DNA from: Aureimonas populi
GTDB taxonomy: Bacteria; Pseudomonadota; Alphaproteobacteria; Rhizobiales; Rhizobiaceae
Length of the DNA stretch: 64,000 nucleotides
Assembly (NCBI RefSeq): GCF_017815515.1
Contig: NZ_CP072611.1
Location: 2,914,001-2,978,000 of the forward strand
Direction: 5' to 3'
Part shown: piece by piece, positions 12,829 through 33,602 of the stretch
Numbering within the stretch: the first letter of the stretch is position 1
Layout: each line of letters begins with the position of its first letter
Notes under the pieces: generated by a model
The model's database searches: none
Told to the model about the DNA's origin: nothing
What the model saw: only the letters and a program-made list of their open reading frames with translations
Translations under genes and position numbers: made by a program

Positions 12829-13008
12829 TGGAATCCTCCCTTGAGATGCAGCACGGCGAACCGCCGTTTAGGGCCGAGCGGGGCGAAGCTCAAGGAAAAG
12901 CTTGCGAACATGCCGTTTCGCTTTCCCGGCCCTCGGCCGCCGAAGACGGCGCACACAAACCCAGCCTCCCTTTACAGCGCCCCTTTCCCTGCTTATCCCA
13001 TGTCCAAG

Positions 13009-13048
13009 GCCGGCTTAGCTCAGATGGTAGAGCACCTGATTTGTAATC
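13009..13048 (+). pseudogene. 5' half of host tRNA-Thr(UGU), cut in the anticodon arm
   Basis: The segment has a complete acceptor 5' strand (GCCGGCT), D arm (GCTC/GAGC) and 5' anticodon stem CCTGA with loop TTTGTAA (anticodon TGT, 13042-13044), then departs from tRNA sequence after TC. The missing 3' half, with complementary acceptor strand AGCCGGC, is found at 24281-24317. Joining the two gives a canonical tRNA, so an insertion of about 11.2 kb split this gene. Confidence 0.9.
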
Positions 13049-13146
13049 GGCGGGCCTGGAGGCGAGAATGCGAATCGGATCATGCGCTTAGGCTGCGTCT
13101 GACCCGAGCAAGTACCGAATAGGCACCGGAAATCGGTGTCGCAGGG

Positions 13147-13221
13147 GCCGGCGTAGCACAGCGGTAGTGCAGCGGTTTTGTAAACCGAAGGTCGGGAGTT
13201 CGATCCTCTCCGCCGGCACCA
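13147..13221 (+). tRNA. tRNA-Thr(UGU), complete, carried inside the element
   Basis: A full cloverleaf can be drawn: acceptor GCCGGCG/CGCCGGC, D stem GCAC/GTGC, anticodon stem GCGGT/ACCGA (last pair G-A mismatched), loop TTTGTAA with anticodon TGT at 13179-13181, T stem GGGAG/CTCTC with loop TTCGATC, and encoded CCA. The first pairs G1-C72 and C2-G71 fit Thr identity. Its sequence differs clearly from the host gene split at 13009, so it is not a duplication. It probably replaces the destroyed host tRNA. Confidence 0.93.
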
Positions 13222-13270
13222 TCCTTCTCCTATCGCGACCGCGGAAGCGGTTTTGCGGTGGTGAAGGTTC

Positions 13271-14230
13271 TCAATTTGTTCTAGTGTTTAGTCCCGGCCT
13301 TTGATGGATTGGGTCGATGATGAATCGATCCGGCTGGGATGTCCACTGCTTGCATATGAACTCGTATGGTGTGAGACCCTTGAGCGTCTTCAATCTTCTC
13401 GCGAAGTTGTAGGCATCGATGAAGTCGGCAAGATGCTTTTTCAGTTGCGCGTGATCGTCGTAGTGGAAGCGTTTGACGGTCGCATCCTTGATGGTGCGGT
13501 TCATCCGTTCCACCTGTCCATTCGTCCAGGGATGCTTGAGCTTTGTGAGCCTGTGCTCGATGCCGTTCTCGTCACAGACCCGGTCGAAGATATGATGGAA
13601 GGCATACTTGTCCCTGGCCCGGTTGGTGAACTGGATGCCGTTGTCAGTCAGAACGGTGTGGATCTTGTAAGGCACCGCCGCGATCAGGTTGCGCAGGAAC
13701 TGGGCCGCGATCATCTTGCCCGCTTCGGTGTGGAGTTCGGCATAGGCGAACTTGGATGTGCGATCGATCCCCACGAACAAGCGCAGCTTGCCCTGGGCTG
13801 TCTGGACCTCGGCGATGTCGATGTGGAAGAAGCCGATCGGATAGCTCTTGAACTTCTTTTTGGCAGGCTTGTCGCCTTCGACATCGGGCAGTCGGGAGAT
13901 GCCGTGCCGTTGCAGACAGCGATGCAAGGATGAACGCGTCAGGTGCGGGATGGTCGGCTGAAGCGCATACAGGCAATCGTCGAGCGGCAGCAGCGTGTGC
14001 TTGCGGAAGGCGACGATGATCGCTTCTTGCTCAAGTGAGAGCACCGTCGAATGCGGGTCCCTCGGCCCGGTCGGAAGATCGGCGACCGAGGCGCGCTTCT
14101 TCCACTTCGCCACGGTCTTCTGATTGATCCCATAGCGCTTGGACAGCGCCCTCAGGCTCTCTTGACTATTTTGTATCGCTCGACGGACCGCCTCTGTCGT
14201 CGTGGCGCTCCCATGTAAAATCTGGCCCAT
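13271..14230 (-). CDS. IS481-family transposase
   Basis: A 319-residue DDE transposase. An N-terminal helix-turn-helix (SLRALSKRYGINQKTVAKWKKR, about residues 26-47) binds the ends, followed by an rve integrase core with the acidic triad in FHIDIAEVQ, VLTDNGIQF and GQVERMNRT. The length is normal for IS481 and the frame is uninterrupted, so it may be active. It is transcribed leftward towards the element's tRNA. The product is expected to act on the inverted repeats at 13285 and 14286. Confidence 0.93.
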   Translation of the reverse strand: MGQILHGSATTTEAVRRAIQNSQESLRALSKRYGINQKTVAKWKKRASVADLPTGPRDPHSTVLSLEQEAIIVAFRKHTLLPLDDCLYALQPTIPHLTRSSLHRCLQRHGISRLPDVEGDKPAKKKFKSYPIGFFHIDIAEVQTAQGKLRLFVGIDRTSKFAYAELHTEAGKMIAAQFLRNLIAAVPYKIHTVLTDNGIQFTNRARDKYAFHHIFDRVCDENGIEHRLTKLKHPWTNGQVERMNRTIKDATVKRFHYDDHAQLKKHLADFIDAYNFARRLKTLKGLTPYEFICKQWTSQPDRFIIDPIHQRPGLNTRTN

Positions 14231-14286
14231 AGCGCATCCTTCCAGTCAGAAGAAAACAATGCACCATCAAAGCACGGGATCAAACA
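13285..14286 (-). mobile_element. IS481-family insertion sequence, about 1.0 kb
   Basis: Imperfect 23-bp terminal inverted repeats bracket the transposase: 13285-13307 and 14264-14286 share TGTTT, TCCCG and CTTTGATGG with a few mismatches. No clear target duplication is seen. The transposase stop codon lies 14 bases outside the left repeat, so the exact left terminus is uncertain or the last codons are borrowed from flanking DNA. It sits between the element's tRNA and its XRE gene. Confidence 0.75.
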
Positions 14287-14289
14287 TCA

Positions 14290-14363
14290 CATCGTCACTT
14301 GCGAATAGAAATGTGACGATGAGTCCGTGGACGATTAGTCGACATCTGGTCGCCATGCGACCA
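14290..14363 (+). promoter_or_regulatory. Candidate operators upstream of the XRE regulator
   Basis: Two perfect inverted repeats lie before and on the XRE start: CATCGTCAC/GTGACGATG (14290-14298 and 14313-14321) and TGGTCGC-CAT-GCGACCA (14347-14363), the latter touching the ATG. Their position suits autoregulation by the XRE protein. This is inferred from symmetry and location only. Confidence 0.45.
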
Positions 14364-14587
14364 TGGTGGACTATAAGAGAGTCCTGGCTCAGAACGTGAA
14401 GGCAGCGAGGAAGGAACTCGGCGTGTCGCAGGAGGCGCTTGCGCTGGAGACGGAGATCGACCGCACCTACATCTCCGGCATCGAGCGCGCCCTGCGCAAT
14501 CCGTCGCTGACGCTGATCGTCAAGTTGGCCGAATGCCTCAAGTCGACACCGGGCGCGCTGCTGACGCCGCCTAGGGATCGCTCCTAG
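14363..14587 (+). CDS. XRE-family transcriptional regulator
   Basis: A 74-residue single-domain helix-turn-helix protein. Residues 6-62 form the HTH_3/XRE fold: LAQNVKAARKELGVSQEALA, then recognition helix region DRTYISGIERALRNPS. Proteins of this size repress phage-like promoters, and this one has palindromes directly upstream. It is convergent with the gp10-like gene, sharing four bases at the 3' ends. It may control the satellite's leftward gene cluster, but no target can be read from the sequence. Confidence 0.88.
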   Translation: MVDYKRVLAQNVKAARKELGVSQEALALETEIDRTYISGIERALRNPSLTLIVKLAECLKSTPGALLTPPRDRS

Positions 14588-15042
14588 CTCTCGACGATCT
14601 TCGCACCGCGCACCGTCGCCAGCCCCTCCATCACCGCGATCCGTACGAATCCGGCCGGCGCCTGCTTCGAGTGGCCGTCGTTGAGCGGGCGGATGTGCGG
14701 GGCGTTGTTGGTGATGTGGATCGAGCCGTTCCTTCCGATGTCGAACGCCTCGATGGTCGGCGCGCCGACCTCGATCGCCGCGGCGGCGTTGTCCGCCGCT
14801 GTCGAGCCGCCCGCGCCCGGAACCCTTGCCGGAAACAGCCCCTCGAAGGCCCGGTCGAGTTCGGGCGTCCAGTTCGAGCGGGCCATGCCGGTGTCGACCG
14901 GCGTTGTCTCGACGGCGGATCGCAGCACGGCATGGGCGCAGTCCTTGACTGCGCGCTCGACGTTACCCTCGACCCGCACGGCGATGCGGTCGATGCGCCT
15001 GGCGAAGTCGTTAAGCCCGGCCATGAACCGATGCTCCGCCAT
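14584..15042 (-). CDS. HK97 gp10-like phage protein
   Basis: A 152-residue phage virion-assembly protein. The segment TTPVDTGMARSNW (about 46-58) and the C-terminal ITNNAPHIRPLNDGHSKQAP (about 110-129) are typical of the HK97 gp10 / tail-completion family found at the head-tail interface. It is the last gene of a leftward cluster and overlaps the preceding 118-residue gene by 32 bases. Its presence without capsid, portal or tail-tube genes suggests that the element modifies or borrows another phage's particles, or is a remnant. Family assignment is by motif memory and moderately firm. Confidence 0.75.
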   Translation of the reverse strand: MAEHRFMAGLNDFARRIDRIAVRVEGNVERAVKDCAHAVLRSAVETTPVDTGMARSNWTPELDRAFEGLFPARVPGAGGSTAADNAAAAIEVGAPTIEAFDIGRNGSIHITNNAPHIRPLNDGHSKQAPAGFVRIAVMEGLATVRGAKIVES

Positions 15043-15367
15043 GTAGCGCTTCGACCTCGGCGTATCGCTCGATGATGGCCCGAAGGATCGGATCGGCCTC
15101 GGGGTCGATCACCATGTAGGGACGATCCTCCGGCCAGAGGTCGGCGTCCCGCATAGAGCGGACCCATGCCGTTCTGCCCCGCGCCGTGGAGCGCGGATCG
15201 ACCGGGCATTCGAGGTAGCGGTAGGCCCGGAGGTGCCACTCGGCCATGAACCGGGCGCGGTCGTCGAAGCTTTCCGGCGTGCCGCCGAGATAGATGTGCA
15301 CCGTCATCGGCGTCGTGGCGAACACCTCTGCCAGGGCATCGCGGATGTGCTGCTCGCGGTTCTCCAT
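15011..15367 (-). CDS. Hypothetical phage-type protein (118 aa)
   Basis: An acidic 118-residue protein starting MENREQHIRDALAEVFATTP with no recognised family. A predicted helix-strand N-terminal half (TVHIYLGGTPESFDDRARFM) is followed by an aromatic middle part and the C-terminal helix ILRAIIERYAEVEAL. It overlaps the gp10-like gene downstream by 32 bases and starts two bases from the end of the upstream ORF, a spacing normal for phage structural clusters. Position next to gp10 suggests a head-tail connector role, but nothing in the sequence proves it. Confidence 0.65.
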   Translation of the reverse strand: MENREQHIRDALAEVFATTPMTVHIYLGGTPESFDDRARFMAEWHLRAYRYLECPVDPRSTARGRTAWVRSMRDADLWPEDRPYMVIDPEADPILRAIIERYAEVEALHGGASVHGRA

Positions 15368-15370
15368 GGC

Positions 15371-15649
15371 TCAGTCCTCTTCGGCGGGGTCGGTGATGTC
15401 GATAAGGTCGGCTGCTTCCAGCGCGGCACGGTCGCGCGCCCTGAGCGCGAGGCCGACAGCGCGCTCCGGCGAGGCGCGGCCAGTCTCGAAGGCGCGATCC
15501 TCGGCCATGGCCCGGTCGGCGATGTCCGCGATTTCCATGATCGCGGCGGTGACGGCGCGGTGTTCCTCCCCGACGAGGAGGTCGGCAAGCTCGTGCGGCG
15601 AGAAGGGGCGCTCGGCATGAGGAACGCGCTGGACGCGGGACACGAGCAC
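15371..15649 (-). CDS. Hypothetical protein, probably the C-terminal part of a gene broken by a TAG codon
   Basis: A 92-residue helical, acidic ORF (HELADLLVGEEHRAVTAAIM, ERAVGLALRARDRAALEAAD) from a GTG at 15649 with no clear ribosome site. The same frame stays open upstream without a start until a TAG at 15674-15676, and beyond it runs straight into the 132-residue ORF. Reading across the TAG gives a smooth sequence, so the two ORFs were probably one ~230-residue protein. The function is unknown. The downstream neighbour begins two bases away. Confidence 0.55.
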   Translation of the reverse strand: MLVSRVQRVPHAERPFSPHELADLLVGEEHRAVTAAIMEIADIADRAMAEDRAFETGRASPERAVGLALRARDRAALEAADLIDITDPAEED

Positions 15650-15673
15650 GGCGGCAAGCTCGCGATCCTTCGC

Positions 15674-16072
15674 CTACACGGCGAGCGCGGCGAGGCTTGC
15701 GAGCTCGGCGTCGCCCGAATGCTCGAGCTGCTGAATCAGGCGGGAGCGGCGCTCGGAGCCGATGCCGTCGCGAGCGAGCATCTGCACCGGGCTCTGGTAA
15801 TGAAAGCGGGCATCGGCGGCGTCGCGGCGCAGGGCGTCGAGGTCGCGCAGCCGCGCGAGCCGGTTGTCGTGGCTATTGCGTCGAAGCTCGGCTCTCAGCC
15901 CACCGAGGGCACGGCCGACCAGCATCATGCGCTGCCCGGTCGATAGGTCGGACAGCGTGGAGTCCAGCTCTTTGCGGCGGGTTTCCACGCGGCCGTTCAT
16001 GTCGGCGATCAGCCGCGTGTGCTGCTCGCCGAGCTCCCGCGCCCGCGAGAGCGAGGCCCGTAGGTCCGTCAC
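15674..16072 (-). CDS. Hypothetical coiled-coil protein, possibly truncated at both ends
   Basis: A 132-residue charged helical protein (SLSRARELGEQHTRLIADM, RRKELDSTLSDLSTGQRMM) with coiled-coil character. The GTG at 16072 lacks a ribosome site. A well-placed ATG with AAGGAGA upstream exists at 16109 but in a different frame; deletion of one C near 16073 would join MAKMKPRPTLAV to this ORF. At the other end a TAG separates it from the in-frame ORF at 15371-15649. A single original gene of about 16109 to 15371 is likely. No family is recognised. Confidence 0.55.
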   Translation of the reverse strand: MTDLRASLSRARELGEQHTRLIADMNGRVETRRKELDSTLSDLSTGQRMMLVGRALGGLRAELRRNSHDNRLARLRDLDALRRDAADARFHYQSPVQMLARDGIGSERRSRLIQQLEHSGDAELASLAALAV

Positions 16073-16240
16073 GGACCGCCAGGGTGGGCCTGGGCTTCAT
16101 CTTCGCCATGGTCGTTCTCCTTCGTCGTGGCGCGTCACGCCCCACGCGGTCGGATGACCCCGGCGCGGGACACGGCCCGCATGAGCGTCCAGGCCCATCG
16201 GCCTGACCGGGCCGACCCATCGGCCGGCCCGTAGACATCT

Positions 16241-16519
16241 TCAGCATGTCCCGACATCGCGCCGGACCGGACCAGCAATGGCGCCACCCGCTCCGTCGAA
16301 CCGCTCCCGCAGCCCGCTCTGCGAGAACAAGAACCAGAGGCGTGCGGCGGTCCGCGTGTCTGTGAGCCGCTCAAGGTCCTCCAGGAACAGCCAAGCGTCC
16401 ATGGCGACGCAGAGCGCCTCGTCCTCAACCTCAAGAGAGTCGCTGATAAGCGCAGCGACGGCGCGGTCGTGCGCCGACACCTGCGCGTCGGGATGGTTCA
16501 TGTATTCAGGCACGGGCAC
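16241..16519 (-). CDS. Hypothetical protein (92 aa)
   Basis: A 92-residue acidic protein beginning with GTG, placed six bases after a GGAGGG ribosome site, which decides this start over the internal ATG at 16501. The middle part EALCVAMDAWLFLEDLERLTD is a strong amphipathic helix. It overlaps the upstream gene by 14 bases, so the two are coupled. No domain is recognised. Location in the leftward cluster that ends in gp10 makes a phage-derived origin likely, without indicating a function. Confidence 0.6.
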   Translation of the reverse strand: MPVPEYMNHPDAQVSAHDRAVAALISDSLEVEDEALCVAMDAWLFLEDLERLTDTRTAARLWFLFSQSGLRERFDGAGGAIAGPVRRDVGTC

Positions 16520-16862
16520 GGCAATCCCTCCTCAAGCCGCGCGCGGCGCGCTTCCGCTCCTGCTGCTCGTAGGCCGCGTCAAACGGGTCGATCAGGCCAT
16601 GCACCTCAATCAGCAGACGCTTGGTCTCGAAAGGCAGCTCGTCGCAGACCATCCGCGCCAGCAGACCGCGATCAGCACCGCGATCCTTCAGCGCACGCAG
16701 ATAGGCGATCACGGTCGCGGACAGCATTACCGTCTGGAACAGCACGGTCTTGTTCTCGAAAGCATTCTCGAATGATATCACCCGAATGGCGGTGTTGATC
16801 TCCTCATCGGTGACCTTGACATCCGCGATGTCCTGCCAAATCCTGGAATCCCAAGGCTTCAT
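16506..16862 (-). CDS. Hypothetical protein (118 aa), first gene of the leftward cluster
   Basis: A 118-residue protein starting MKPWDSRIWQDIADVKVTDEE after a good AAGGAG ribosome site nine bases upstream; a longer frame to 16949 lacks one. The protein looks helical with a central LFQTVMLSATVIAYLRALKDRG and a basic C-terminus. It is the promoter-proximal gene of the cluster running to gp10 and is divergent from the gene at 16975, with a 16-bp perfect palindrome between them. No family is recognised. Confidence 0.65.
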   Translation of the reverse strand: MKPWDSRIWQDIADVKVTDEEINTAIRVISFENAFENKTVLFQTVMLSATVIAYLRALKDRGADRGLLARMVCDELPFETKRLLIEVHGLIDPFDAAYEQQERKRAARGLRRDCRARA

Positions 16863-16927
16863 TTTCTTCGCTCCTTCTTTCCGCCCGCAGGAGCGCGGAC
16901 GCAGGAGGAAGGTGGCAGAGCGCATTC

Positions 16928-16965
16928 TTGACGTCAAAAAGATAGGCAATTACAAACGTTTGTAA
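16928..16965 (+). promoter_or_regulatory. Divergent promoter region with 16-bp palindromic operator
   Basis: TTACAAACGTTTGTAA at 16950-16965 is a perfect 16-bp palindrome. It is preceded by TTGACGTCAA (16928-16937), also a palindrome, whose TTGACG can serve as a -35 box; seventeen bases on, TACAAA (16951-16956) can serve as -10, inside the operator. A repressor bound here would block the rightward gene at 16975 and sit upstream of the leftward cluster starting at 16862. Confidence 0.6.
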
Positions 16966-16974
16966 AGGGCGAAA

Positions 16975-17457
16975 GTGTCCACTATGTCCGATGACGAACT
17001 CGTTCCCGCGAAATATCGAGGCCAGATCGGTCGAAAATATCGGTCACCGCACCAGTCGGGCTACGTTCGCCGCCGGCCCATCGTCATGGAGTATGTGAGG
17101 AGCCTTCTCATCGACGGAGAATGGCCGACCACCGAGAAGATCGCGCGATTGATCGAGGCGCTGGATCGCGGGCACGTCGTCAACTCGAAGACCATAAGCT
17201 ACGACCTGTACCACCTCAGAAAAGAGGGAAAGGTGTGGCGCTATCCTAACAGCCACCGCGTAAAGGTCGAGGACTCCGAAGGTCCCCGCATCTATCCGTC
17301 CTTGAGGTGGGCCGCCGACGCCGAGGGCTGTTCCAAGGAGGCCGCCAGAAAATGGCTGATGAAGCCGGGGCAAATGAATCGGCGTGGCCAAATCTGGAGC
17401 TATGTCGAATCTCCCGAAGATCGACCGAAGACCAATCAGCGGAAGAAGGGCGGCTGA
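16975..17457 (+). CDS. Putative DNA-binding protein of the element
   Basis: A 160-residue basic protein; the only one in the middle of the element that reads rightward. Residues about 35-82 (VMEYVRSLLIDGEWPTTEKI through TISYDLYHLRKEGKVWRYP) look like a winged helix-turn-helix, and the C-terminal part resembles a second small DNA-binding-like region (WAADAEGCSKEAARKWL). GTG 16975 is preferred because AAGGG lies six bases before it; ATG 16984 is the alternative. It starts immediately after the palindromic operator and so may be its own repressor, a natural candidate for the element's master switch. This function is inferred. Confidence 0.6.
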   Translation: MSTMSDDELVPAKYRGQIGRKYRSPHQSGYVRRRPIVMEYVRSLLIDGEWPTTEKIARLIEALDRGHVVNSKTISYDLYHLRKEGKVWRYPNSHRVKVEDSEGPRIYPSLRWAADAEGCSKEAARKWLMKPGQMNRRGQIWSYVESPEDRPKTNQRKKGG

Positions 17458-17462
17458 TGTCA

Positions 17463-17723
17463 TCAAACGTCGCCGGAATTTGCCCTGTGCGGAACCTGAT
17501 GTTCGTCGGCCATGCGCTCCCACATCGCATCGGGAAGCGGCGCAACTGACCAGAACCATGCGCCGGTCGGCCCTCCGCGCGCGGCTACGAGCGCGTTCGC
17601 TCCGCCAAACACGGCCACGGCAAGGGGCGCGGTGGCGGCGAGCGTCTCGGCCAGCACCTGCGCCGCCAACAGGTCGCGCAACAAGGCCGACGCCGCGTCA
17701 GTCGACCGGGACGAGCGCGCCAT
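17463..17723 (-). CDS. Hypothetical small protein (86 aa)
   Basis: An 86-residue ORF from an ATG at 17723 (MARSSRSTDAASALLRDLLA) with a hydrophobic Ala-rich middle (AETLAATAPLAVAVFGGANAL) that could be a membrane segment, then an aromatic patch WFWSVAPLPDAMW. The start lies inside the frameshifted tail of the terminase-small-like gene, a typical overlap for phage genes. It is convergent with the gene at 16975, five bases apart. No family is recognised, and coding status is supported only by arrangement. Confidence 0.45.
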   Translation of the reverse strand: MARSSRSTDAASALLRDLLAAQVLAETLAATAPLAVAVFGGANALVAARGGPTGAWFWSVAPLPDAMWERMADEHQVPHRANSGDV

Positions 17724-17767
17724 CCGCCTTGGCCTCCACCTCGACGGCCAGATATTTGCCCAGCAAA

Positions 17768-18205
17768 TCAATCAAGGCGGCACGGTCGCCGGGCTCCATC
17801 CGCGCGATGACGCGGGGGGGCGAGACCGGCCGGCGCCGACGCCATAGCTCCGCCCTCGGCCGTGAAGGAAAGGAAGTTGTTCAAGCGTTCAGGCCAGCGG
17901 AATTTCAGCAAAACTTCGATCAGCCTATCGCTCGGTTCCTCGTCCGCAAGTGAGCGATCGAACGCCTTGCCAAGAATTTCGTGAAATGCGGAGTCCATCG
18001 CCTGATTGTACCTGGCGCCGAACTCGAAATCCCGCCGGCGGTGGTCGTGAATCGTTGCCGTCGAAATGCCCGTCGCCTCCGACGCCCGCTTCGGCGAGCC
18101 GGTTCTCGCGATGATGTCCAGGACCCGCGCCTCGATCGCCGCTGTCCATCTCCGATCCATGGCGGGACGGCGCACCGCCCGAACCTCGCCCTTCCTGTCG
18201 CCCAT
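17768..18205 (-). CDS. Phage terminase small subunit-like protein, 3' end frameshifted
   Basis: Small terminases recognise pac/cos DNA for packaging. Residues about 20-110 carry an N-terminal helix-turn-helix (SPKRASEATGISTATIHDHR) followed by RRDFEFGARYNQAMDSAFHEILGKAF, the usual pattern for this family. The ATG at 18205 has an AAGG ribosome site; an upstream ATG at 18271 adds 22 residues. At a run of seven C (17814-17820, minus strand) the frame shifts. One C fewer would replace the present end by a plausible tail IARMEPGDRAALIDLLGKYL, ending at 17698. No large terminase gene is present nearby. Replacement of host-phage TerS is how PICI satellites redirect packaging. Confidence 0.7.
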   Translation of the reverse strand: MGDRKGEVRAVRRPAMDRRWTAAIEARVLDIIARTGSPKRASEATGISTATIHDHRRRDFEFGARYNQAMDSAFHEILGKAFDRSLADEEPSDRLIEVLLKFRWPERLNNFLSFTAEGGAMASAPAGLAPPRHRADGARRPCRLD

Positions 18206-18761
18206 GGTCGCCGCCTTCTTCCTGATTGCCTGCCTGCGATGATGCAGCGTGCGGGACGTGCTGGGAGCCATCGAAACCGTCTCGCAAAAATTTGGGAAAT
18301 CGGCTCCCGGCCTCCCTCCCATGGAAAAGGGGCCGTTGAGCCGATGGAGATCCTAGGACGCCGGCCCGTTCTCCATGGGAAGTGGGTTGTTTCTCGCCGG
18401 GACCCTTTGCCGGTACCTGGCCCGGTGCTTTCCAATCCGCCGCCGACCATGCCCTTGATCCGACTCGCCTTCGGGCCTCGGACCCTCCTATGCGCGATTA
18501 GAGGGTCTGGCACCGTCGCCCCGCAGCGGCGCGCAAGCCCGCCGCTGCCCGCCTTCGGTGATGTTCGGCCTCGCTCACCGTCACCGCGCCGCGGCCGTAC
18601 TGGCCCCCGTCACCGAGCCACCGGCACCGATCATTACCTTTGACCGGCTGACTGGCTCGCACGCGCGAGGACTGCGTGGTCTGCACGAAAAGCGCCACCG
18701 GAAGCAATGTCGCCACCGCCTCATACAGCACGATCGCAGGGCCGGAGGATGACCGACCTAA

Positions 18762-19668
18762 GAGTCCGTCCGAGAATGGGTTGAGTGATCGGAGCGCGGC
18801 TGATTCCAGAGGGTATCTGACACCTGATCTGGAAACGCCATGTGGACCCCGACCACCCGGCGGCAGCATAGCCGCGACCACCTGCGATATGAAACCGACC
18901 TGACCGATGCCGAGTGGGGGATCATCGAGCCCATGCTGCCGAAGGGATGTTCGCGAGGGCGACCGTCGGCCTGGCCGACGCGCGAGATCCTGAATGCGAT
19001 CTTCTACGTCCTGCGGGGTGGCATTCCCTGGCGGCTCATCCCCAAGGACATGCCGCCCAAGAGCACGGTGTTCGACCATTTCAGCCGCTGGCGCGACGCT
19101 GGCGTATTCGCGACCATCAACCACCGCCTCGTCATGAGGGATCGTGAGCGGGTGGCGCGCGATGCCTCGCCCAGCGCCGCCGTCATCGACAGCCAAAGCG
19201 TCAAGACAACCGAGGCCGGCGGGCCGAGAGGGTATGACGCCGGCAAGAAGGTGAAGGGTCGAAAGCGCCAGGCCATGGTCGATACGGATGGACGCGCCCT
19301 CGTTCTCGATCCTCAGCCCGCCAGTGTCCAGGACCGCGACGGTGCCGTCCCTGTCCTGCGCCTGTCGCGGCGTTCCTTCCCGTTCGTGACGAAGGCCTTC
19401 GCCGACGCAGGCTTTGCGGGAGAGCGGCCTCGCACCGCAACGCTGATCGACATTGAGATCGTCAGGAAACCGCCAGAGCAGATCGGATTCGCAATCCATC
19501 CGAGGCGCTGGGTCGTGGAACGCTTCTTCGCATGGATCAGCCGCAACCGGCGCCTCTGGAAGAATACCGAGGCCACGCTCGCATCCGCCACAGCCTTCCT
19601 CTACGCCGCATCCGTCATGATCCTCCTACGTCGCATCGCTCGGGCATCATGAATTCCCGGACGGACTC
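18762..19668 (+). mobile_element. IS5-family insertion sequence, 907 bp
   Basis: Terminal inverted repeats of about 16 bp (GAGTCCGTCCGAGAAT at the left, its near-perfect complement ATTCCCGGACGGACTC at the right) enclose a single transposase gene. The flanks are TAA on the left and TGA on the right, fitting the TNA target of the IS1031-type subgroup but differing at the middle base. The insertion breaks an ORF of the surrounding element. Confidence 0.85.
18840..19652 (+). CDS. IS5-family transposase
   Basis: A 270-residue DDE transposase in one uninterrupted frame. The N-terminal DUF4096-type domain contains LTDAEWGIIEPMLP and GGIPWRLIPKDMPPKSTV. The acidic residues sit in AAVIDSQSVKTTE, FADAGFAGE and WVVERFFAWISRNRRLWKN, the last being the IS5 Y-(2)-R-(3)-E-(6)-K-type signature region. 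The length is usual for the family and no programmed frameshift is needed. The start at 18840 is 78 bases inside the left end of the IS. Confidence 0.95.
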   Translation: MWTPTTRRQHSRDHLRYETDLTDAEWGIIEPMLPKGCSRGRPSAWPTREILNAIFYVLRGGIPWRLIPKDMPPKSTVFDHFSRWRDAGVFATINHRLVMRDRERVARDASPSAAVIDSQSVKTTEAGGPRGYDAGKKVKGRKRQAMVDTDGRALVLDPQPASVQDRDGAVPVLRLSRRSFPFVTKAFADAGFAGERPRTATLIDIEIVRKPPEQIGFAIHPRRWVVERFFAWISRNRRLWKNTEATLASATAFLYAASVMILLRRIARAS

Positions 19669-19908
19669 TGAGATCGGACGGCGGGCTCTCCGGCCTCCAT
19701 GCGCGGCGCGCGGTATCTCGGTGGACCTCGAAGCCCGAAACTCTACGGCGACAGCAAACAGCCATGCCGCCATCCCCTTATGCCCCTCTCTATTCCATGT
19801 TGATTTATAGAGAGAGATACAACAGATACAGCAGCCGGAATTGCGCAGCCGGATCATGAGCTTGAGGCTCGGCATCCGCCTCATGGAAGATACCGCGCCC
19901 CGTGCCGC

Positions 19909-22155
19909 TCACGCCTTGAACGTCGGGTCCTCCGGCGAGACGTACCCGGTCATCGACTGCTTCCCGAACCGCAGATTGGCCTTGTGCTGCCAGCCGAGCT
20001 TGGCCATCAGCACAGCCACGCGCTTCGCATCCGTCTGGTTCTGACGGCTGCACGGCACTTCCAGCGCGAACTCCAGCAGCTCCTGCGACGAGAAGCGTGT
20101 GCGCCCCGGCGACGATGCCAGGTGCAGCCGGAGCCTGTCGAGCCAGGGGTCATCGACCTGACGGTCGCCCTGTCTGTCGGCCGCGTCGCTCCAGAGGCTC
20201 GAAGGCAGCGTCAGGGACTCGCCCGCGGCCTCCAGGATTGCGGCCTCCGCCCAGAGCTGGTCGCGGTCCCGCTTCAACGCGTCGAGGTCGATGTCGCCGG
20301 TCGAGACCGGCAGGTAGCGCCGGTTGCCGGTGTGGTCGCGCAGGTACGACGCGCTGTTGGTGGTGCCGATGAAGACGCAGCGGCGCGGGAAGGTCTTCAC
20401 CGTCCTGCCGTAGGGCGGCCGGTAGCGGTCCTCCGTGCGGGTGACAAACGCTTTTAGGTTCTCGACCTCGGCCTTGTTCATGGCGGTGAGCTCTCCCAGC
20501 TCCATGATCCAGACGCCGTGCAGCGCGCCGGCCGAGTCCTTGCCGTCGAGGCGACCGAGCTCGGCGTCGGAGTGCCACATGCCGCCGAGGATGCGCAGCG
20601 CGGAGGTCTTTCCCGAGCCCTGCCTGCCCTCGACGATCGGCACCGTGTCGAACTTCGTGCCGGGCCGGCGCATCCGCCGGACCGCCGCCAGCATCAGCTT
20701 CCGGCCCGCCGCCCGCTCGTAGGCGCTGTCCGGCGACCCGAAATAGGCCGGGAACAGACTGTCGATACGTGACACGCCGTCCCATGCCAAACCGTCCAGG
20801 TATTCGACAACTGGGTTGAACGTGTTCTTCGTCGCGAGAGCGAACAGGACGTCCGACACGTCCTCGCGCTCGGCTCGAGGGCGAACTGCTCCATGATCCA
20901 CTCGCGAACGATACGGATCAGGTCGTCGGTTAGTTCGCGGCCGATGTCCGCCATCCAGGGCAGCCGCTCGGCCCGCAGCACAGCGCGCTGCGAGAGCTCG
21001 TCGAAGCCGACCCCGAGGCGCGCCGCCTCCATGGCCCGCTGGGTGTTGCGGTAGTTCGGCTCGATCCGCCCCTTGTTGGTCAAGAAGGCCGGCGCGGCGA
21101 CCTCGGCCGGCAGGTCGATGTCGTTCGGGAAGTCCTCCGCCGCAGGAGCGCAGCACCTCCTCGATGAAGGCGCCGAGCCCTGCATCCGAGAGCGCCTTGA
21201 GGAGGGTCGCCAGCGTCACGCCGCCGGCCTTGATCGTCAGCGAGGCCCAGCGGCCGCGAATGCGATCCTCGTCGCCGGCATAGTCGGGATCGCCGACAGA
21301 CCAGGCGACGAACTCGTCGACGCCCGCGCCATCGGTGCCGTGGTGCGCCGCCATCATAATCGCCAGCCAGTCGTCGTGACGGCCGTTGTAGGCTGCCACG
21401 TCCAGCTTCGACAGCAGCCGTTCCAACTGCGCCGGCGTGATCTCGCCGGAGCCGATGGTAGATGCGGCGACGGAAGGCTTCGCAATCGCGTCCAGGAGAG
21501 CGGTGGTCGCCTCGGGCGCCTCGGCAAGCGACAGAGCCAGAATGTCGTCGTCGAGCCCGTACGAACTTCCGTTCGGATGCACCGATCCGGCGGCCACGAC
21601 CTGCCGTCCCAGCGACTTGAACTCGACGCCGGGATAGGCGGCGAGCTCGCCCAAGACGGGCATGTCTGCGGGCTTGCGGTAATAATGATGGAAACCGCCG
21701 CCGCCAGTCCTGACAAAGGGCGCCTCGGACAGGCCGAAGTCCCGCACCAGCCGCGCGAACGGGTCGTCGCCCTCGGCGAAGTTCCTCGGGTCCACGTCGA
21801 TGACCAAATCGATGTCGCGCAAGCGAGCGCCAACATTGCAACCGGCCTTCATACGGGCGACGGCCTTGGCCAGCGAGAGCGCGGGCTGACGGCGCCAGCC
21901 GGAGGACTTCGGGAACTTGCCGGCCGGCTTACCCTTGGTATCCTTCGCCTGCCAGTGCCTCAGCGGGATCAGCTCATGGCCGGCGGCGATGTGAGCATTC
22001 AGGACCTCGGGGTCGTGCTTCGACGGCGTTTCGACAACCTGGGGAGCGGTATCCTCAATCTTGTCGAAGTCGAACTCGACGGTCTTCTCCAAAGCTCCTG
22101 CGGGCGCGCCGGTCCCTTCGGCGCGCCCTTCTTCATTGGCAAGATGATCGCTCAT
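19909..22155 (-). CDS. Prim-pol / VapE-like replication protein with two compensating frameshifts
   Basis: A 748-residue primase-helicase of the type used by phage satellites for self-replication. Residues ~55-215 form an AEP prim-pol domain (LVIDVDPRNF, TGGGGFHHYY, VVAAGSVHPNGSSYG). A PriCT-like region follows to ~330. The VapE/D5-like ATPase spans ~440-680 with Walker A EGRQGSGKTS near 508. Residues ~336-429 look like nonsense in this frame, but the neighbouring frame in the same stretch (about 21150-20868) reads as normal protein (DIDLPAEVAAPAFLTNKG, RELTDDLIRIVREWIMEQF). One inserted and one lost base therefore scramble ~94 residues. The ATG overlaps the upstream HTH stop as ATGA. Confidence 0.88.
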   Translation of the reverse strand: MSDHLANEEGRAEGTGAPAGALEKTVEFDFDKIEDTAPQVVETPSKHDPEVLNAHIAAGHELIPLRHWQAKDTKGKPAGKFPKSSGWRRQPALSLAKAVARMKAGCNVGARLRDIDLVIDVDPRNFAEGDDPFARLVRDFGLSEAPFVRTGGGGFHHYYRKPADMPVLGELAAYPGVEFKSLGRQVVAAGSVHPNGSSYGLDDDILALSLAEAPEATTALLDAIAKPSVAASTIGSGEITPAQLERLLSKLDVAAYNGRHDDWLAIMMAAHHGTDGAGVDEFVAWSVGDPDYAGDEDRIRGRWASLTIKAGGVTLATLLKALSDAGLGAFIEEVLRSCGGGLPERHRPAGRGRRAGLLDQQGADRAELPQHPAGHGGGAPRGRLRRALAARCAAGRAAALDGGHRPRTNRRPDPYRSRVDHGAVRPRAEREDVSDVLFALATKNTFNPVVEYLDGLAWDGVSRIDSLFPAYFGSPDSAYERAAGRKLMLAAVRRMRRPGTKFDTVPIVEGRQGSGKTSALRILGGMWHSDAELGRLDGKDSAGALHGVWIMELGELTAMNKAEVENLKAFVTRTEDRYRPPYGRTVKTFPRRCVFIGTTNSASYLRDHTGNRRYLPVSTGDIDLDALKRDRDQLWAEAAILEAAGESLTLPSSLWSDAADRQGDRQVDDPWLDRLRLHLASSPGRTRFSSQELLEFALEVPCSRQNQTDAKRVAVLMAKLGWQHKANLRFGKQSMTGYVSPEDPTFKA

Positions 22156-22394
22156 CGACCGTCCTCCCCGCGCACGAAGGCGTCAAGGTCGTCGACGTGG
22201 TAGCGCACGACCTTGCCGTGGACGATGTGATGGCGTGGCCCGGTGCCGAGCGAGCGCCAGACCCGAACGGTTCCGGGTGTGGACGAGAGATAGGCGGCAG
22301 CCGCGTCGGTGTCGTACCAGGGACTGCTGCGATGGGCGTCGAGCACGCGGCGCAGCGCGTCCTCGACATCCTCCTTGGTGAGATTGGCCTGCAT
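22152..22394 (-). CDS. HTH_17/AlpA-like DNA-binding protein (excisionase type)
   Basis: An 80-residue protein from the ATG at 22394, chosen because GGAGGT lies nine bases upstream; an in-frame start at 22484 would add 30 unsupported residues. The C-terminal half, about 25-78, is a MerR/excisionase-like winged helix: DTDAAAAYLSSTPGTVRVWR, then GKVVRYHVDDLDAFV. Such proteins act as recombination directionality factors or as AlpA-type activators in satellites. It is coupled to the replication gene through ATGA. A second protein of the same type lies just upstream, so their roles may be divided. Confidence 0.85.
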   Translation of the reverse strand: MQANLTKEDVEDALRRVLDAHRSSPWYDTDAAAAYLSSTPGTVRVWRSLGTGPRHHIVHGKVVRYHVDDLDAFVRGEDGR

Positions 22395-22556
22395 TGTGAA
22401 TGACCTCCATTGGCCTGACGGCAGCGCCGCCGGGCCGGTTTCAGACATGTTTCTGTCTGAGGAGGACCGGGTTTTCCCGGTCACGCGCTTCGCCGTTTCG
22501 GCTCCTCGAAAAGCGCGCGTCGTCTAATAATCACCGATCAAGAGCAAAGAGGACTA

Positions 22557-22970
22557 TTACTTCTCGTTGCCATCACGAGGGGACTTGACAGTGGGCAAAA
22601 GCCTGTCCGCCGCCCGCTCGGCCACCTTGTCCATCAGCCAGGCGGGAAGGCGCTTCTTGCGCCTGCCGCCCCGCACGAAGGTATCGAGATCGTCGACATG
22701 GTAGCGGATGAGCTGGCTGTTCACGACGTAGAAGCGCGGGCGTTCGCCTCGCGAGCGCCAGCCCTTGAGCGTCCCGGGCTCGCGCCTGAGATAGGCGGCA
22801 GCCGCCTCCGTGTCGAACCACGGCGTGAACCAATGCGTGTCGAGATACCACCTGACCAGAGCCTCGACGGCCTCCATCGTGACAGGCCCCTGCTTCTTCG
22901 CCGGCCTCTGCCGCTGGACGGGAACCGGCGCGTGAGGCTTCGCGCGGGGACCCTTCCCGTTACGCGGCAT
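22557..22970 (-). CDS. Second HTH_17/AlpA-like DNA-binding protein
   Basis: A 137-residue paralogue of the 80-residue protein downstream. After a basic Pro-rich N-terminus (GKGPRAKPHAPVPVQ), residues about 35-108 carry the same layout: EAVEALVRWYLDTHWFTPWF, then DTEAAAAYLRREPGTLKGWR and LIRYHVDDLDTFVRGGRR. The tail is basic. The ATG at 22970 overlaps the integrase stop by 11 bases, coupling it to the integrase. Excisionase or satellite activator roles are both possible; the sequence does not decide between them. Confidence 0.83.
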   Translation of the reverse strand: MPRNGKGPRAKPHAPVPVQRQRPAKKQGPVTMEAVEALVRWYLDTHWFTPWFDTEAAAAYLRREPGTLKGWRSRGERPRFYVVNSQLIRYHVDDLDTFVRGGRRKKRLPAWLMDKVAERAADRLLPTVKSPRDGNEK

Positions 22971-24129
22971 CGCGCTCCTCCGTCGTGGCCGGGAGCCGCA
23001 GCGTCGAGGTCCGCACCGCCACGATCCGGTTCTCCAGCGCCTGCGCGTGCGGCCGCAGGTGCTCGACGAGATGCTCGGCGTGGACGTAGCCGCCCGAGGC
23101 GCCGGGAAGGCGCTGGCCGAGGAGAAGCGCACTCTCGGCATAGGGTACGCCGGCCGCGATGAACATGGTGCGGGCGTGGTGGCGATACTCGTGCGGGCTC
23201 GGCAGGCCTCGCTTCCGTTCCTTCGGCTCGGTCGTGCAGCCCTTGCCGCTCGCGGGCGACGGCCAGAGCCAGGGATTATTGAACGGCAGGTCGTCCTCGA
23301 GCCGCTGCGCGATCATATTCCGCAGGAACGTGCCCATCGGAAACAGCATCCGCCCGCCGGTCTTCATATGGTTGAAAATCAGCACGCCCCGCGCGAGGTC
23401 CACGTCCTTGCGCTTGACGTTCAGGATCGAGGCCCGCCGCGCGCCGGTCAGCAGCATGGCCCGGTGCAGGTCGCGCCGGATCGGCGAGAGCGCCTCCGTC
23501 TTTTCCCACCATTCGGCGACATCGAGCTCGTCGACGTGCCGGCTCTTCGGCGTCGGGAGCCGCAGGAAGGTCACCGGGTTGGAGGTCAGCGTCTCGTCCA
23601 GCCGCAGCGCCGTGTTGATGACCGCCCGCAGGGTGCGCATCACGCCGGTCGCGGTCGGCTGGCCCTTCGCGCTGCGCAGATGCTGGTAGATGTCGCGCAC
23701 TTCCGAGCGGGAAAGGTCGGCCACGGCCCGGTTCTTATAGCGGCCGAGATAGTGCTCGATGTTGTAGCGGTAGCTCACGACCGTGGCGTCCCGCAAGGGC
23801 TTCTCCTGAAGGTGCTCGTCGAGCGCCTGCAAGAGCGTGATGCCGCTCTCCTTCGGTCCCGCGGTCGGGTCCACGCCCGACTGGATCTGCGACATGATCG
23901 CCCTGGCCCGGCTGCGGGCCTCGCGCAGGCCGATCCGGTCGACGCGGTCGATCTTGACCCGCACCGTGCGGATGTGCCGGCCGTTCCTGCGGACGTCGCC
24001 TTGGACGGCGTAGGTCTTGGTCGTGGCGTGGCAGACGACGAGGAGGCCTTTTACCTGCTCGTCCCGCCAGATGCCGGATTTGAGGGGTAGATCCCTGATG
24101 CGGGACTCTGTTAGGTTGAGGGTAGCCAT
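22960..24129 (-). CDS. Tyrosine recombinase (integrase)
   Basis: A 389-residue phage-type integrase. An N-terminal Arm-binding region (LTESRIRDLPLKSGIWRDEQ and VRVKIDRVDRIGLREARSRA, DUF4102-like) is followed by a SAM-like core-binding domain (~120-210) and the catalytic domain. Catalytic residues can be placed in LTGARRASIL (Arg), HMKTGGR (Lys), HEYRHHAR (His/Arg) and GGYVHAEHL (Tyr). The ATG at 24129 has an AAGGAAA site; a longer frame to 24234 lacks one. Its start lies about 150 bases from the right junction in tRNA-Thr, the usual place for an integrase gene. It most likely made the insertion into the anticodon arm. Confidence 0.95.
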   Translation of the reverse strand: MATLNLTESRIRDLPLKSGIWRDEQVKGLLVVCHATTKTYAVQGDVRRNGRHIRTVRVKIDRVDRIGLREARSRARAIMSQIQSGVDPTAGPKESGITLLQALDEHLQEKPLRDATVVSYRYNIEHYLGRYKNRAVADLSRSEVRDIYQHLRSAKGQPTATGVMRTLRAVINTALRLDETLTSNPVTFLRLPTPKSRHVDELDVAEWWEKTEALSPIRRDLHRAMLLTGARRASILNVKRKDVDLARGVLIFNHMKTGGRMLFPMGTFLRNMIAQRLEDDLPFNNPWLWPSPASGKGCTTEPKERKRGLPSPHEYRHHARTMFIAAGVPYAESALLLGQRLPGASGGYVHAEHLVEHLRPHAQALENRIVAVRTSTLRLPATTEERDAA

Positions 24130-24258
24130 TCGATTATTTCCTTCGCGAGCACCGGATGGAGCACCGTGCGGCCGCTGCTTTCGGTTGCCGCACGTTGATC
24201 TACGTTGTCGCGTAAGTGGCTGTTCGCGAACCACTATTTGAGGAAATTAGTCCCGGTT

Positions 24259-24287
24259 AATAGGATAAAATCCTATTTACAATCAGG
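24259..24287 (+). other. Right attachment junction (attR)
   Basis: An 8-bp inverted repeat AATAGGAT-AAA-ATCCTATT (24259-24277) abuts TACAATCAGG, where tRNA-Thr sequence resumes. The left junction reads ATTTGTAATC and the right ATTTACAATC, so the two share ATTT and AATC around a two-base difference. The host anticodon arm CCTGATT-TGT-AATCAGG is itself a dyad, which fits use as an integrase core site. Confidence 0.65.
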
Positions 24288-24317
24288 GGGTCATCGGTTC
24301 GATCCCGGTAGCCGGCA
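24281..24317 (+). pseudogene. 3' half of host tRNA-Thr(UGU)
   Basis: The sequence AATCAGG (3' anticodon stem), GGGTC variable loop, ATCGG-TTCGATC-CCGGT T arm and AGCCGGC acceptor strand, then discriminator A and CC. The acceptor strand pairs perfectly with GCCGGCT at 13009 and not with the element's own tRNA. No tRNA 5' half lies upstream, so this is the displaced remainder of the split gene. The last base of the terminus is G rather than A (CCG). Confidence 0.9.
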
Positions 24318-24409
24318 CCGATTAACACCTCGAATGTCTGGCCTTTTCAGGGATATGGCTACGCGAGGGCTTTTCTCTCGGCGAGTGGTGCGCCCGTGGG
24401 GCGTCGTCC

Positions 24410-33526: not shown

Positions 33527-33602
33527 GCCGCTTTAGCTCAGTTGGTAGAGCATCGCATTCGTAATGCGGAGGTCGTCAGTTCGAGTCTGACAAGCGGCAC
33601 CA
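33527..33602 (+). tRNA. tRNA-Thr(CGU)
   Basis: A full cloverleaf: acceptor GCCGCTT/AAGCGGC, D stem GCTC/GAGC, anticodon stem TCGCA/TGCGG, loop TTCGTAA with anticodon CGT at 33560-33562, T stem GTCAG/CTGAC and encoded CCA. It reads ACG. It is a different isoacceptor from the split UGU gene and cannot fully replace it. Confidence 0.97.

Follow-up and report, generated by a model that had tools for sequence, protein, structure and literature searches.

A phage-satellite-like element that splits the tRNA-Thr(UGU) gene of Aureimonas populi and probably supplies its replacement

The window (the whole stretch of 64,000 nt analysed here, positions 2,914,001 to 2,978,000 of NZ_CP072611.1) is part of the genome of the alphaproteobacterium Aureimonas populi. 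It contains a mobile element inserted into the anticodon loop of a host tRNA-Thr(UGU) gene, and this element carries a complete tRNA-Thr(UGU) gene of its own. Judged from the sequence, we consider it very probable that this is a phage-satellite-like integrative element which uses tRNA-dependent integration, the carried tRNA replacing the broken host gene.

The coordinates of all features are given in Table 1. The two host tRNA halves are separated by 11,236 bp, including a tyrosine integrase gene. Rejoined in silico they form a tRNA-Thr with 7/7 acceptor pairs, which is 71% identical to the carried tRNA. The carried gene starts 100 bases inside the left junction. ARAGORN calls two tRNAs in the window, the carried gene and a tRNA-Thr(CGU) at 33527-33602, and none at either junction. 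The element thus does not restore the 3’ part of the tRNA as a canonical island would. These results bear out the sequence-only reading in its description of the locus, namely two halves with complementary acceptor strands around ~11.2 kb, a host gene truly cut with its 3’ end unrestored, and a complete, different tRNA-Thr(UGU) with encoded CCA just inside the left junction. An encoded CCA is ordinary in A. populi, as it is present in every tRNA read without a clipped end. No long direct repeat at the element ends was seen among the 20 largest repeat families listed, which is expected since the common core at the junctions is only ~7 bp in relatives (read by eye).

The genome of A. populi is a single contig of 3,822,311 bp with a completeness of 99.61%. 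All of its 47 Rfam tRNA matches were read by ARAGORN, and the UGU anticodon occurs only in the gene of the element. Threonine tRNAs are represented by one Thr(GGU), one Thr(CGU) and this one Thr(UGU). A pattern for the UGU anticodon arm and T arm likewise has a single match in the genome, the carried gene. Anticodon-loop patterns were used because plain DNA searches proved unreliable across the two types of this tRNA described below; one such search missed the carried tRNA. The broken host gene therefore has no backup copy, and the carried gene, being the sole intact UGU gene, appears to have replaced it, as had been proposed. The further claim that the host is tied to the element holds in part: a host that loses only the carried tRNA should not survive, whereas precise excision of the element would make its own gene whole again.

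The earlier state of the site was evaluated in 20 congeners. Their resident intact tRNA-Thr(UGU) gene is of the type of the split host gene (type A) in 11 and of a second type (type B) in nine, with no congener having both. The first 40 nt of the host 5’ piece are identical to the intact genes of four relatives (G004, G011, G014, G018). Moreover, the upstream neighbour gene, which by our reading encodes a tripartite ATP-independent periplasmic (TRAP) transporter binding protein, adjoins the intact tRNA gene in 11/11 type A and 8/9 type B congeners (the exception is G006). Identity over 40 nt in four relatives together with upstream synteny in 19/20 congeners excludes a chance match of the tRNA halves, and the 5’ half can be regarded as the remnant of a resident gene. 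Support for the empty site is confined to the upstream side: the gene following the 3’ half did not turn up in the stretches examined around the relatives’ tRNA; all 20 relatives have a homologue of it.

Two further observations concern the congeners themselves. One genus harbours two very different resident types, A (L048-L058) and B (L108-L114, L141, L142); the TRAP gene stands beside nearly all type B genes as well. Three congeners have a displaced copy of the tRNA 3’ half at a distance of 9-22 kb from their intact gene (G014:C17, G001:C44, G005:C21), which probably means that the tRNA-Thr(UGU) gene is also a target of other islands that restore it.

An assembly artefact fusing unrelated sequence has practically no probability. 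We found no point in its support, the genome is a single, nearly complete contig, and the same kind of junctions occurs in independent genomes, including the chromosome of Devosia algicola (L177). The fully paired acceptor stem would also suit a host tRNA that is still produced, either by trans-joining of two separately transcribed halves or by removal of the insert at the RNA level. Trans-joined split tRNAs, though, are mainly known from archaea. Moreover, the 3’ half has changes in both its anticodon core and its CCA end, and integrase, transposase and replication genes point to mobility at the level of DNA. Hence we give this explanation next to no credence.

The same tRNA-plus-integrase arrangement was sought in other genomes, as the sequence-only reading had suggested, and it recurs. 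When 297 genomes of the order were searched with the integrase, three close relatives (64-74% identity) were obtained. An alignment of four integrases then retrieved 31 loci in genomes and three in virus contigs (L183-L185), resulting in 36 loci together with the window and G266. Layouts were assigned by eye, with the tRNA halves also located by blast. In 34 of the 35 other loci the sequence beside the integrase start shows a tRNA half truncated within the anticodon loop, the tRNAs concerned being Thr, Arg, Lys, Asn and Cys. L176 has no tRNA half at this position, and its 3’ half was not found. The family search and the flanking halves point to a tyrosine integrase whose bacterial attachment site (attB) lies inside a host tRNA gene. 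By these loci, the family occurs in several alphaproteobacterial families.

Three layouts were distinguished. The layout of the window, termed split-forward, consists of the host 5’ half, an arm of 96-101 bp bearing integrase-type repeats, a complete cognate tRNA, the element body, the integrase and the host 3’ half. It is found in 12 of the 36 loci (window, G266, L152, L153, L155-L158, L176-L178, L184) and targets tRNA-Thr(UGU) in nine and tRNA-Arg(CCU) in three of them. The arm measures 97-101 bp in 11 aligned elements and ~96 bp, counted by eye, in L152, whose ends are on different contigs and were assumed to belong together. In the split-reverse layout (L162 with ends on two contigs, L164, and L171 from a metagenome-assembled genome (MAG) named Thiohalocapsa) the element is inverted in tRNA-Arg(CCU) and a complete Arg(CCU) gene lies 0.15-3.6 kb inside the far end. 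Canonical restoration of the tRNA is seen in nine loci (L159, L161, L166, L169, L170, L172, L174, L175, L182). The L175 element has two identical tandem tRNA-Asn(GUU) genes at its canonical end (extension L198). The partial reverse loci L165 and L173 and nine loci with a missing end (L160, L163, L167, L168, L179-L181, L183, L185) were left out of the counts, and L154, with its own carried tRNA broken, was counted apart.

The carried anticodon equals the broken one in 12/12 forward and 3/3 reverse loci. Both halves are available for ten forward loci, and in all of them the acceptor stem pairs 7/7, G-U pairs allowed. Identity between carried and host tRNA ranges from 71 to 96% in nine forward loci and reaches 100% in L178. 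A search with the anticodon-loop pattern covered 19 genomes and two virus records. In 15 of the 19 genomes the split gene was assignable to its carrier; each of these was found to have exactly one intact cognate gene, located on a mobile element. Nine of them concern Thr (G000, G266, G358, G335, G337, G363, G350, G351 and G334, where the sole intact Thr(UGU) copy is on a nested insert) and six Arg (G333, G336, G338, G360, G361, G364). The other four are G362 (canonical), G365 (no pattern match), G366 (six matches, several intact) and G348 (one intact copy, which could not be assigned to the element). The sole-copy status is firm for the window and provisional in MAGs and drafts, because the pattern allows no mismatch and such genomes may be incomplete.

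The type B genes of nine congeners are 88-91% identical to the carried tRNA. This would fit a carried tRNA that is in fact an old resident, beside which an ordinary restoring island landed and later lost its 3’ half by deletion. Moreover, the bases following the core resemble a tRNA 3’ half in some elements: when the first 22 bases after the core were compared with the tRNA 3’ half (2000 shuffles), p was <0.05 in 5/11 elements and not in the remaining six. We take this as a hint only of a vestige of the 3’ half, and the 15 matching bases after the core in L184 may reflect a recent conversion. On the other hand, the split-forward layout was measured in 11 elements from different hosts, always with a spacing of 97-101 bp. 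The elements of the window, of Pseudolabrys (L153) and of Parvibaculum (L157) carry the very same tRNA sequence, which is at most 91% identical to the tRNA-Thr(UGU) genes of congeners. Hence, on this comparison, the carried tRNA travels with the element. No element arm precedes any of the seven type B genes inspected (of nine) and the two types do not coexist in a congener, so that an old resident is very improbable. A domestication of the type B genes from this element was also considered and is disfavoured, as none of these seven genes has the arm.

A tree was calculated from 35 family integrases and six outgroup rows, leaving out L180. The split-forward loci form one clade together with L154 and the unresolved L183 (support 99/99), with canonical and reverse types falling outside. 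The rows of L176 and L177 were kept although they are partly wrong, a single reading frame having been used in spite of the frameshifts; both are flagged for odd make-up and paired on a branch of length 2.14, L177 showing a long end branch in addition. Canonical and whole-tRNA types require at least three changes on the tree (25 labelled rows), and the Thr and Arg targets three changes among 13 forward rows. A single clade of forward and reverse whole-tRNA types (19 rows) was rejected by the approximately unbiased (AU) test (p = 7.45e-06), for which the groups were named after the data had been seen and with which one origin followed by losses stays compatible. The direction from canonical to whole-tRNA is no more than likely, as change counts cannot tell gain from loss and deep branches are poorly supported.

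Based on this analysis, tRNA-dependent integration may proceed as follows. The integrase would act on a core of ~7 bp within the anticodon loop, recombining it with the host tRNA-Thr(UGU) gene, as the junctions suggest, and would use paired arm repeats on both sides. Since the element lacks the missing 3’ half, integration breaks the host gene. The host tRNA promoter would then most likely read through the 38-nt stump and the arm into the carried tRNA, which RNase P and the usual 3’ processing would set free. We infer this promoter capture from the fixed spacing and direction alone. For ACA codons the host would rely on the tRNA of the element unless precise excision rejoins its own gene. Such a whole-tRNA design would allow target tRNA genes of varied body sequence.

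Several points weigh against this model. Present-day excision from the window is doubtful, as the cores differ by two of seven bases: the 3’ half has TTTACAA in place of TTTGTAA, the sister element L183 having TTTGTAA in its right core. This change may hinder excision and render the replacement nearly permanent. Promoter capture as proposed is not universal, since it is not available to relatives inserted in reverse. A consensus scan of 12880-13280 on either strand found no sigma-70-like site, leaving transcription of the host or the carried tRNA gene unproven. Moreover the predicted fold of the carried tRNA is modest (z -1.93, 9/200 shuffles being as good) vs z -3.69 for the rejoined host tRNA by the same plain RNA folding. 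Finally, ACA is rare near the element, with 1/65 Thr codons in four reading frames of the host.

The region upstream of the 5’ half was searched for an element arm in 11 forward loci and L154. L178 shows such an arm with a score of 113 (maximum of 200 shuffles: 25) and L154 one with a score of 45, in this case without shuffle comparison. L176 is marginal (34 vs 32), and the other nine loci score within their shuffles. In L178 and L154, the split gene was thus already an element-borne tRNA. L154 (a Nitrobacter MAG; extension L186) was observed to contain a prophage-like insert that split the element-borne tRNA-Thr(UGU). This insert brings a Thr(UGU) gene of its own, located on the opposite strand, and, as read from the protein, an integrase-like frame of another kind. 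Apparently it is an independent case of tRNA-dependent integration. Beyond the displaced 3’ half of L163 there are arm-like repeats, suggesting a possible second element in tandem. In L176 and L177 the integrase is frameshifted, and still no UGU gene other than the carried tRNA was found. A tRNA which is fixed in the attachment site, driven by the host promoter and itself a fresh anticodon-loop target could explain that elements stack, that the tRNA outlives its integrase and that tRNA genes are slowly replaced in Alphaproteobacteria. We put this forward tentatively, its chances being somewhat short of even.

Table 1. Features of the split tRNA-Thr(UGU) locus and its element in the window.
Feature	Position	Strand	Remarks
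Host tRNA-Thr(UGU), 5’ half	13009-13046	+	Cut in anticodon loop, ends TTTGTAA
Left attachment arm	13047-13146	+	100 bp from crossover to carried tRNA; block TCGGATCATGCGCTTA; paired integrase-type sites ~13111-13129
Complete tRNA-Thr(UGU) of the element	13147-13221	+	ARAGORN; same direction as host gene
Insertion-sequence transposase just inside element	13271-14230	-	PHROG 7e-27; inverted repeats 13285-13307/14264-14286
Helix-turn-helix (HTH) repressor-like protein	14363-14587	+	HTH_3 1.8e-14
Phage neck/HK97-gp10-like connector	14584-15042	-	phrog_169 7.4e-35
Terminase small subunit-like	17768-18322	-	phrog_4044 3.3e-10 for residues encoded by 17768-18211
Second insertion-sequence transposase	18840-19652	+	PHROG 1.3e-12; inverted repeats 18753-18777/19653-19677
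Primase-polymerase/VapE-like helicase replication protein	19909-22155	-	VapE-like 5.2e-72, Prim-Pol 1.1e-15
AlpA/excisionase-like HTH	22152-22484	-	HTH_17 4e-7; phrog_66 9.2e-6
Second AlpA/excisionase-like HTH frame	22557-23141	-	HTH_17 3.1e-5, under Pfam cut-off; overlaps integrase frame end
Tyrosine integrase	22960-24132	-	phrog_1 1e-33; Pfam integrase domains all just under cut-off
Right-arm paired repeats AGCACCGGATGGAGCACCG	24148-24166	+	Candidate integrase arm sites
Right crossover copy of anticodon-loop core	24276-24282	+	Mutated, TTTACAA
Host tRNA-Thr(UGU), 3’ half	24283-24320	+	CCA reads CCG

The paired repeats of both arms are putative integrase arm sites. Besides them, the block TCGGATCATGCGCTTA is kept in most left arms (window and ten other elements) and is possibly a site for a host factor or excisionase. 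A 176-nt repeat in the second AlpA-like frame matches the first copy at 70%. Small elements with an integrase, an AlpA-like regulator, a primase and a packaging gene are typical of satellites resembling phage-inducible chromosomal islands (PICI), and the element in the window has this gene set. Integrase, AlpA-like HTH, primase-VapE and terminase small subunit-like frames are common to all nine split-forward elements compared, the last having a homologue in 8/8 other elements. On the basis of these genes we call the element satellite-like.

A decayed full prophage is an unlikely alternative, though one to be kept in mind. Neck and terminase small-subunit genes are present, and L183-L185 come from a virus collection. 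Among the window frames scanned, not all small ones included, these two are the only matches of this kind. Opposed to decay are the common gene set and the sizes (13.4-15.4 kb in eight of the nine elements compared and 11.2 kb in the window; L153, outside the comparison, has 3.7 kb). Moreover 13 of 50,697 phage records match the integrase, none above 26.5% identity.

Some satellite-like elements of the family also carry putative defence genes. PADLOC, run on ten proteins from six elements, gave eight matches, all in the zone beside the carried tRNA. They include Gabija GajA in G266 (3e-275), restriction-modification-type genes (restriction, cytosine methyltransferase) in L155, L156, L177 and L184 and an LmuB-like match in L158. 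The defence-type genes are situated at L210:13265-15577 and in the cargo zones of the five loci just named.

The design is less unprecedented than the sequence-only reading had implied. The layout itself is confirmed here, but its principle is already in print as tRNA-dependent lysogeny, which was described and tested with mutants in actinobacteriophages such as Fionnbharth (Guerrero-Bustamante and Hatfull, 2024; PMC10865867). According to its discussion, prophage Lj965 of Lactobacillus johnsonii is a likely further case, and both the prevalence outside actinobacteriophages and the evolutionary link to canonical integration were left open (PMC10865867). Our family bears on both questions, as it occurs in several alphaproteobacterial families and beyond full phages, with canonical and whole-tRNA types side by side within one integrase family. 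A single-copy translation gene can apparently pass from the chromosome to a mobile element. Tools for island detection that presuppose a restored tRNA are expected to miss such elements, and a module of element attachment site (attP) plus tRNA could yield integration vectors tolerant of varied target sequences. In the open-licence literature, as far as its accessible parts extend, we recognised no report of this integrase family or of a satellite-like carrier.

The elements share with tRNA-dependent lysogeny, as presented in the sections of PMC10865867 at hand, a tyrosine integrase, a core within a tRNA gene (~10 bp there), an unreconstructed host tRNA, a carried tRNA of the same isotype and canonical relatives within the same integrase family. 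In contrast, the actinobacteriophages are temperate and target Lys, Ile2 and Leu tRNAs in Actinobacteria, whereas we describe small satellite-like elements of proteobacteria in Thr(UGU) and Arg(CCU) genes. In the forward elements the tRNA keeps the direction of the host gene and lies at 96-101 bp from the crossover, a distance not noticed in those sections, and dependence was tested there with mutants but is deduced here from sequence. Two Sinorhizobium meliloti prophages in tRNA-Leu(UAG) (PMC11476347, PMC12429752) are likewise alphaproteobacterial, with a broken host tRNA and a prophage-borne cognate tRNA resembling genes of other species. They comprise two prophages with another isotype, and no element family, clade or spacing appears in the parts of these reports consulted. 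Canonical islands, as outlined in the available text on Islander (PMC4383910), also show a tyrosine integrase, a split target gene and a displaced fragment, but restore the tRNA gene, as do nine of our integrase relatives, whereas here the gene stays broken.

PICI and P4 satellites resemble the elements in size, integrase, AlpA-like regulator, primase-helicase, terminase small subunit and, in some, defence cargo. They differ in that no helper phage is known for our family and in its distance from the phage integrases matched. Taken together, what is new by this comparison of predicted genes and layouts is a satellite-like, often defence-carrying family in which a tRNA is hard-wired beside attP, targets are switched along with the matching tRNA, and elements stack on one another.

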